Source: Xylanimonas cellulosilytica DSM 15894 (lineage in GTDB: Bacteria; Actinomycetota; Actinomycetes; Actinomycetales; Cellulomonadaceae). From it: DNA of 64,000 bases. The DNA lies in assembly GCF_000024965.1 (NCBI RefSeq), contig NC_013530.1:3348001-3412000 (forward strand), written 5' to 3'. The first letter of the stretch is position 1, and every line of letters starts with the position of its first letter. The translations under genes and the position numbers were made by a program. Under the pieces are notes generated by a model. It was not told the origin of the DNA. It was given only the letters and a program-made list of their open reading frames with translations, and ran no database searches. Of the stretch, positions 45,399-46,870 are shown piece by piece.

Positions 45399-46574
45399 TC
45401 AGAGCGCGCGGCGCGTACCGACCGCGTCCGCCAGCTCGCGCAGCAGGTCCGCCGTCGTGTCCCAGTCGATGCACTTGTCCGTGACGGACCGGCCGTACGT
45501 GAGCGTGCTCAGCGGGCCCGGGTTCTGGGCGCCGGCCTCGATGAAGCTCTCCATCATCAGGCCCGTGATGCCCTGCTCACCCTCGGCGAGCCGAGCCGCG
45601 AGCTCCCGCACCACGGCGGCCTGCCGCACGTGGTCCTTGCCGGAGTTGCCGTGCGAGGCGTCGACGATCAGGCCGTGCGAGACGGCCCCCACGAGCCCGG
45701 ACCGGCGGGCCACGTCCAGCGCCGCCTCGACGTCGGGGCGCGAGTAGTTGGGGCCGGAGCGGCCGCCGCGCAGGATGATGTGGCAGTCGGGGTTGCCCGC
45801 CGTGGTCACGGACGCGGCCCGCCCCTCGGAGTCCGCGCCGAAGAAGGTGTGCTCGCTCGCGGCGGTGATGCAGGCGTCGACGGCGGTCTGCACGTCGCCG
45901 TCGGTCGCGTTCTTCATGCCCACGGGCATGGACAGGCCGGACGCGAGCTGGCGGTGCACCTGCGACTCGACGTTGCGCGCACCGATCGCGCCCCAGGTGA
46001 CGGCGTCGGCGATGTACTGCGGGCTGGTCGGCTCCAGGAACTCGGTCGCGGCGGGCACCCCGGCGTCGAGCACGCCGAGCAGCACCTCGCGGGCGAGCCG
46101 GAGCCCGTGCAGCACGTCGTGCGAGCCGTCCAGGTGCGGGTCGTTGATGAGGCCCTTCCACCCGACGGTGGTGCGAGGCTTCTCGAAGTACACGCGCATG
46201 ACGACGACGAGCTCGTCGGCGAGCTCGCGCGCCAGGAGGGCCAGGCGGGAGGCGTAGTCCAGCGCGGCGGCCGGGTCGTGCACGGAGCACGGGCCGACGA
46301 TGACAAGGAGGCGATCGTCCTCACCGGTCAGCACGTCACGCACCTCGCGGCGCGAGAACGCGACGAGGTCGCTGCGCTCGGTGCCGAGCGGCTGCTCGAC
46401 GCGCACGTCGCGCGGCGCGGGCAGCGCGTCGAGGGCGCGGATGCGAAGGTCGGAGGTCTCGGCCAACAGCTCAGCCTTCCGGTCGTTGGCGGCAGGGCCC
46501 GCGGCGGCAGCCGGGCCGCCCGCAAGGCTATCGCTCGGGGTGGCTGAGTTCAGGGCGGTGGGGCTCACGGTCAT
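45399..46574 (-). CDS. 3-deoxy-7-phosphoheptulonate synthase (class I DAHP synthase)
   Basis: A 391-aa enzyme that joins phosphoenolpyruvate and erythrose 4-phosphate, the first step of the shikimate pathway. Family strings are LVIVGPCSVHDPAAALDYA (about 87-105), RVYFEKPRTTVGWKGLINDP (about 124-143), PVGMKNATDGD (about 213-223), RGGRSGPNY, and IVDASHGNSGKDH. It is the AroF/AroG/AroH-type (class I), longer at the N-terminus than E. coli AroG (350 aa). ATG 46574 has AGGAG about 10 nt upstream. It is controlled by the leader peptide and terminator at 46694-46814. Confidence 0.96.
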   Translation of the reverse strand: MTVSPTALNSATPSDSLAGGPAAAAGPAANDRKAELLAETSDLRIRALDALPAPRDVRVEQPLGTERSDLVAFSRREVRDVLTGEDDRLLVIVGPCSVHDPAAALDYASRLALLARELADELVVVMRVYFEKPRTTVGWKGLINDPHLDGSHDVLHGLRLAREVLLGVLDAGVPAATEFLEPTSPQYIADAVTWGAIGARNVESQVHRQLASGLSMPVGMKNATDGDVQTAVDACITAASEHTFFGADSEGRAASVTTAGNPDCHIILRGGRSGPNYSRPDVEAALDVARRSGLVGAVSHGLIVDASHGNSGKDHVRQAAVVRELAARLAEGEQGITGLMMESFIEAGAQNPGPLSTLTYGRSVTDKCIDWDTTADLLRELADAVGTRRAL

Positions 46575-46693: not shown

Positions 46694-46724
46694 AGGCCCC
46701 CGACGCGTCCTGCGTCGAAGGCCT
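46694..46724 (-). terminator. attenuator terminator hairpin of the DAHP synthase gene
   Basis: Thirteen-base arms, 46694-46706 (AGGCCCCCGACGC) and 46712-46724, pair fully (two G-U pairs in the minus-strand transcript) around the 5-nt loop. It lies 25 bp after the leader-peptide stop and 120 bp before the structural gene, where an attenuator belongs. There is no strong U-tract, as is common in high-GC Actinobacteria. Confidence 0.82.
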
Positions 46725-46748
46725 GTGCTGGCTCCGGTGGGGTGCTGG

Positions 46749-46814
46749 TCAGGCGTTCGCCCGCCCTGCTCCACACGGAGCCGGCGTAAAGCGCCAATAC
46801 CAACGGGGGTTCAC
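46749..46814 (-). CDS. aromatic amino acid leader peptide (attenuation peptide) for DAHP synthase
   Basis: A 21-codon reading frame from GTG 46814: M-N-P-R-W-Y-W-R-F-T-P-A-P-C-G-A-G-R-A-N-A, stop. Trp-Tyr-Trp-Arg-Phe puts all three aromatic residues, the products of the pathway, within five codons. Ribosome stalling there when aromatic aminoacyl-tRNAs are short would change folding of the RNA and prevent formation of the terminator at 46694-46724. There is no Shine-Dalgarno, so translation from a leaderless or near-leaderless transcript is likely. It fits the ribosome-mediated attenuation scheme of trp-type operons. Confidence 0.88.
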   Translation of the reverse strand: MNPRWYWRFTPAPCGAGRANA

Positions 46815-46817
46815 GGC

Positions 46818-46834
46818 GCTGACGATACGTCAGC
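46818..46834. promoter_or_regulatory. palindrome GCTGACG-ATA-CGTCAGC at the leader promoter
   Basis: Perfect 7-bp arms around ATA, four bases upstream of the leader start codon. TATCGT within it (minus strand) could be the -10 element, so a protein bound here would block the promoter. No regulator can be named. Confidence 0.5.
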
Positions 46835-46870
46835 ACCTGAGGGCGGCCCAAACCCGTTCCAGGATGCGGG

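Follow-up and report, generated by a model that had tools for sequence, protein, structure and literature searches.

Does the short aromatic-rich open reading frame (ORF) upstream of the type I DAHP synthase gene control entry into the shikimate pathway, and through which RNA switch? We analysed this locus in the window, i.e., the whole 64-kb stretch of DNA, for which an initial annotation had proposed an attenuator that senses three aromatic amino acids. Very probably, the element acts on the type I DAHP synthase gene as a ribosome-mediated attenuator with a leader peptide, and it is likely an ortholog of aroR-aroF of Corynebacterium glutamicum. To judge from the sequence comparisons below, the cell probably gauges its aromatic amino acid supply by the movement of ribosomes over the leader.

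Layout of the locus

On the minus strand, a possible -35 hexamer, a -10 box, a 21-codon leader ORF, a 13-bp hairpin, and the type I DAHP synthase gene follow each other in this order (Table 1). The Trp-Tyr-Trp-Arg-Phe leader that the initial annotation had pointed out can be read directly, with codons R4, W5, Y6, W7, R8, and F9 being CGT, TGG, TAT, TGG, CGC, and TTT (46805-46788). It is the only small ORF on either strand of the 64-kb window with at least four aromatic residues in five codons. The 13-bp stem described between leader and gene is likewise present, separated from the leader stop codon by a 24-nt gap and followed by a tail poor in T/U (TCGTCG). A scan for consensus promoters and terminators, which is uninformative in GC-rich DNA, gave no match at the locus; it missed the hairpin because the T tail is poor.

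Table 1. Features of the leader region and the downstream gene, in the order of the minus strand (coordinates of the window)
Feature	Coordinates	Strand	Details
Possible -35 hexamer, TTGGGC	46846..46851	-	18-nt spacer; putative, from sequence reading
-10 box, TATCGT	46822..46827	-	TAnnnT; ends 7 nt upstream of GTG
Leader peptide ORF	46749..46814	-	21 codons, GTG start, no Shine-Dalgarno, MNPRWYWRFTPAPCGAGRANA; kept across Actinomycetota
Leader start and stop codons	GTG 46814-46812; TGA 46751-46749	-	Direct sequence reading
Presumed sensing codons W5 Y6 W7 R8 F9	46788..46802	-	TGG TAT TGG CGC TTT; rare synonymous codons
Region 1a, GGCTCCGTGTGG	46771..46782	-	Codons 11-15; its partner is a GGAGC inside the leader (H0) or region 2
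ACCAGC at the stop codon	46744..46749	-	Forms the outer stem of the leader hairpin with GTTGGT (46804-46799), which lies on the sensing codons
Region 2, CCACCGGAGCC	46730..46740	-	Past the leader stop; complement of region 1a
Terminator hairpin (3:4)	46694..46724	-	5' arm AGGCCTTCGACGC (46724-46712), loop AGGAC (46711-46707), 3' arm GCGTCGGGGGCCT (46706-46694); 13 pairs including G-U
Type I (AroF/G/H-type) DAHP synthase gene	45399..46574	-	Likely ATG at 46574; Shine-Dalgarno AGGAG at 46588-46584

The DAHP synthase assignment is based on matches to TIGR00034 (467.7 bits; cut-off 173) and NF009395 (491.1 bits), and the gene is the sole PF00793 match in the genome. A second DAHP synthase, of type II, is encoded elsewhere in the same genome (G000:C1:2155029-2156321; L191). 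No aromatic leaderless ORF was found upstream of it under the strict definition of a leader, which demands a TAnnnT 5-9 nt before the start codon and at least three Trp, Tyr, or Phe residues in six codons.

Conservation, start, and codon usage of the leader

Conserved leaders in related genera had been proposed as a check of the initial annotation. By the strict definition given above, an equivalent leader ORF is found upstream of the DAHP synthase gene at 126 of 163 distinct Actinomycetota loci and at none of the 163 in the antisense control; the loci were partly picked by similarity to the window's protein, and the fraction is no unbiased census. The leader is not a chance ORF. Trp, Tyr, and Phe, whose codons had been noted together in the window, are all present in 117 of these 126 leaders. 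The cellulomonad leaders read RWYWRFTxAPGGA; others are RWYWRYEPAPGGA in a Streptomyces, RAYWRFIEAPGGA in Mycobacterium, Gordonia, and Dietzia relatives, YFWFSRPAPGGS in Nocardia and Rhodococcus, and RWYAYFSLALEGPAS in Arthrobacter. The order of aromatic residues differs by clade (WYWRF, RAYWRF, YFWF, WYAYF, and WRFYF) and the aromatic content is kept. This pattern favours selection for decoding over selection for a fixed RNA motif.

A type I gene is absent from the sampled genomes that we take to be Streptomyces and from several Mycobacterium genomes, so the leader is easily missed. Two other arrangements were observed. In one family of the window's taxonomic order, the genomes have a pair of neighbouring type I DAHP synthase genes with no strict leader (L177-L180, L186-L187). 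A DAHP synthase gene of Polyangiaceae (L092) has MASRRFFWFGYWRAETAATGSSL upstream, along with a strong terminator that ends in a run of T.

The Tyr and Phe codons of the leaders are rare ones. Among the genes of the window, TAT accounts for four of 141 Tyr codons and TTT for two of 216 Phe codons. The leaders have TAT:TAC and TTT:TTC ratios of 146:14 and 119:27, versus 11:379 and 14:377 in the downstream genes. The corresponding odds ratios are 359 for TAT and 119 for TTT, and the Fisher test behind them counts related leaders as separate observations, so that its p-values overstate independence. Within the leaders, T occupies the third position in a fraction of 0.84 of the Tyr/Phe codons versus 0.18-0.19 of the other codons, and the Asn codons AAC and AAT occur 72 and 4 times, respectively; hence, the preference for TAT and TTT is no general AT bias. 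As the aromatic order shifts between clades yet TAT and TTT persist, we infer selection on decoding, and hence sensing by the ribosome. In single clades, a structural need for the U may be an alternative source of the preference.

Of 105 actinobacterial leaders, 104 have a TAnnnT that ends 6-8 nt before the in-frame start codon, versus two of 941 control start codons located elsewhere in the upstream regions, and Shine-Dalgarno-like cores are nearly absent ahead of the actinobacterial leaders. From this position of the -10 box, the leader peptide is very probably leaderless, as had been suspected from the single sequence. The predicted transcription start coincides with the first base of the leader's GTG, at 46814. 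At the -35 position, TTGG- or TGGAC-like hexamers occur in most congeners. The 17-bp palindrome reported to overlap the promoter does exist (GCTGACGTATCGTCAGC, i.e., GCTGACG-TAT-CGTCAGC, 46835-46819) and spans the -10 box TATCGT. The role implied for it did not hold up: the palindrome is not kept in congeners, so that it was rejected as an operator and is probably incidental.

Helices of the leader RNA and the candidate switch

For 57 diverse leaders, we set the pairing energy of each cognate pair of segments against that obtained with partners permuted among the leaders. The arms of the terminator pair with a z of -21, and the 3' half of the leader pairs with the post-stop segment (1:2) with a z of -11.4; neither the leader nor the post-stop segment pairs significantly with the terminator 5' arm. 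Partner swaps across clades also reflect differences in clade base composition, dinucleotide shuffles do not, and the shuffles agree with these results for the terminator, 1:2, and 5'-arm pairings. In Micrococcaceae-like leaders, covariation occurs at seven of ten terminator pairs and at six of 14 pairs of the 14-bp counterpart of the 1:2 helix. The upper terminator stem of cellulomonads has 17 double-change cells; the core of their 1:2 helix is invariant, and this clade gives no covariation signal for it. The outer leader stem GUUGGU:ACCAAC shows compensatory changes in relatives, including two covarying pairs, and its observed pairing was matched by none of 500 shuffles. The U tail of the terminator is clear in mycobacteria and Actinoplanes relatives, U-rich in most clades, and poor in the window. 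Judged by these comparisons, the hairpin between leader and gene is a conserved terminator hairpin with covariation.

We propose the following course of events. A leaderless mRNA would begin at the leader GTG and be translated by a 70S ribosome. A shortage of charged tRNA for Trp, Tyr, or Phe would slow it at W5-Y6-W7-R8-F9 with its rare TAT and TTT codons. The position of the ribosome would then decide the downstream fold, i.e., the leader hairpin, the 1:2 helix between codons 11-15 and the post-stop segment, or the terminator 3:4, and the fold would set the amount of RNA polymerase read-through into the gene. The output of such stalling would be premature termination, with induction of the gene upon starvation.

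We inspected how a stalled ribosome affects these helices with two simplifications: the ribosome is taken to cover 13 nt beyond its A site, and the RNA is folded at equilibrium. In cellulomonads, 2.1 and 1.7 bases of the terminator 5' arm are sequestered when the ribosome stalls at the first and middle aromatic codon, respectively, versus 6.4 when it is at the stop codon. This runs opposite to the classical attenuation model, in that the stall frees the terminator arm. A stall on Trp or Tyr leaves region 1a free for region 2, and the resulting 1:2 helix and the terminator 3:4 have no bases in common; only on the Phe codon does the stalled ribosome cover region 1a. Across actinobacteria, neither the leader nor region 2 sequesters any part of the terminator more than expected from shuffled sequences. 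Stalled-ribosome folding thus reveals no textbook antiterminator in the window's clade or in most actinobacteria. Of the attenuator proposed in the initial annotation, the leader, which is conserved, and the terminator stem, which covaries, are supported.

Two candidate antiterminators were rejected. Pairing of region 2 with the terminator 5' arm has a z near 0 against both permuted partners and shuffles, and in the window it amounts to a 7-bp bulged hairpin of -9.3 kcal/mol versus about -28 kcal/mol for the terminator. Pairing of the leader with the terminator 5' arm is absent in actinobacteria.

In alpha-proteobacterial analogues (Bradyrhizobium, Mesorhizobium, and Devosia; e.g., SYFWYFSYDSSLAAGG), the post-aromatic leader codons pair with the terminator 5' arm on stall, sequestering 8.4 of its bases versus 1.7 at the stop codon. 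These leaders (SYFWYF...LAAGG; L063, L081, L097, L105) lie ~340 nt upstream of the GPCS motif and have a U-run terminator. By the folding model, they are textbook attenuators, antiterminator included. We found no published description of an alpha-proteobacterial aromatic leader attenuator before DAHP synthase.

A wider reading is put forward tentatively. One ancient leaderless leader with rare Trp/Tyr/Phe codons may integrate the three aromatic amino acids across Actinomycetota and control DAHP synthase without a textbook antiterminator, by means of a 1:2 helix beside the terminator that in some clades is possibly relayed to the ribosome binding site.

A different output, translational attenuation, seems unlikely to us. 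Here the leader would govern the Shine-Dalgarno sequence of the DAHP synthase gene via a chain of helices (1:2, 2:5, 5:6, and 6:SD), and the hairpin 3:4 would be incidental or a second layer. The post-terminator segments do pair with each other and with the Shine-Dalgarno sequence above permuted partners (z of -4.8 and -5.1), but against shuffled sequences the z values are weak (-0.8 to -1.1). Opening the Shine-Dalgarno sequence costs more with the ribosome at the stop codon than with it stalled in Nocardia-type (+4.2 kcal/mol), alpha-proteobacterial (+4.1 kcal/mol), and mycobacterial (+1.7 kcal/mol) leaders. This effect is not seen in the window's family, where the mean is -0.7 kcal/mol and the window itself has 7.8 stalled versus 4.1 at the stop codon, and in the alpha-proteobacterial and Nocardia leaders it largely survives shuffling of region 2. 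Although the hairpin past region 2 in Nocardia-type leaders has no U run, as translational attenuation would have it, a terminator with a U-rich tail is kept in most clades, which speaks against it.

Leaders of the Nocardia, Rhodococcus, and Amycolatopsis type (L053, L056, L059, L065, L074, L204-L212) have a post-stop GAGCCGG/CCGGCUC hairpin, mostly with no U run. Modelling suggests that these leaders control the ribosome binding site instead.

Rho-dependent attenuation, with the C-rich post-stop segment as a loading site that 1:2 pairing conceals on stall, is quite improbable: the segment is indeed C-rich and G-poor in many clades and would be partly masked by 1:2, but it measures only about 25 nt, and a covarying conserved hairpin with a U-rich tail sits past it. 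Still less credible is a riboswitch or operator with the ORF as a by-product, since, despite the strong nucleotide-level conservation of TGGTATTGGCGCTTTACG within the window's family, no Rfam cis-regulatory model matches the element at gathering or relaxed thresholds, the aromatic codons are reordered between clades yet remain aromatic and in frame, the spacing from start codon to -10 box is fixed, and the palindrome is not conserved. Because the 1:2 and 3:4 helices share no bases and the Shine-Dalgarno route is unsupported in the window's family, we commit to attenuation by the leader peptide and not to an antitermination step.

Relation to known attenuators and meaning for the phylum

The aroF DAHP synthase gene of C. 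glutamicum lies downstream of the aroR leader, which carries the residues Phe-Tyr-Phe (Neshat et al. 2014, J Biotechnol 190:55-63, described in PMC11802643 and PMC11525245; PMC4046766 also shows the leader). According to PMC11802643 and PMC11525245, that study demonstrated transcriptional attenuation by Phe; transcription goes up when Phe is limiting but does not respond to the availability of Tyr. The locus in the window resembles aroR-aroF in having a short aromatic-rich leader ORF directly upstream of a DAHP synthase gene and in its predicted attenuation in response to an aromatic amino acid, but differs in its control residues, Trp-Tyr-Trp-Arg-Phe. Two small-genome (2.4-2.7 Mb) Mycobacteriaceae of one genus, probably Corynebacterium, carry the WRFYF leaders MRMWRFYFSKAPEAETS and MRNWRFYFEWGSGR, each followed by CCGGAGCC. 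These leaders match the Phe-Tyr-Phe of aroR and, together with CCGGAGCC, probably link aroR to the window's element. Compared via the description of aroR-aroF and the WRFYF relatives, the window element is likely orthologous to it. On sequence grounds, it is an aroR relative with altered control codons, Trp among them, rather than one of the same control-codon type.

Other leaders share parts of this design. The mycobacterial cysteine sORF attenuator candidates (PMC4633059; Seliverstov 2005, PMC1262725) are likewise leaderless sORFs before an amino-acid operon with the pathway's amino acid in the peptide, but for another amino acid than the window's; Seliverstov 2005 reports no obvious terminator for the cys leaders. 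The trp attenuators of Corynebacterium and Streptomyces (PMC1262725; S. lividans trpL1, PMC8079986) also combine a leader peptide, leaderless in S. lividans, with a GC-rich terminator. They have Trp codons only and, unlike the fold predicted for the window's leader, an antiterminator overlapping the terminator. The uORFC-13-1 motif of Acholeplasma aroF (PMC8632094) is likewise a predicted uORF with a terminator before a DAHP synthase gene, but it has Phe codon(s) only, a ribosome binding site, and an unrelated lineage. An aromatic leader ahead of DAHP synthase appears neither in the available text of Seliverstov 2005 (PMC1262725) nor in the S. lividans leader list (PMC8079986), plausibly because model Streptomyces lack the gene; the main text of Naville 2010 has none either. 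We found no description of an attenuator of the aroR kind for the window's lineage.

The element is very probably an attenuator of a known kind, and what is new is the lineage and the presence of Trp among the control codons. With a leader before most of the actinobacterial type I DAHP synthase genes examined, C. glutamicum aroR looks like one case of phylum-wide control of shikimate pathway entry. Because the leaders use TAT and TTT almost exclusively although the genomes are GC-rich, they offer a clean natural test of whether leader codons are selected for being decoded slowly, and helices that share no bases call the textbook antiterminator model into question for actinobacteria. Three features merit testing by specialists: the tri-aromatic design shared phylum-wide, the rare codons, and the absence of a visible antiterminator. 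In producers of aromatic compounds, the leader attenuator also offers a practical point at which control could be relieved.
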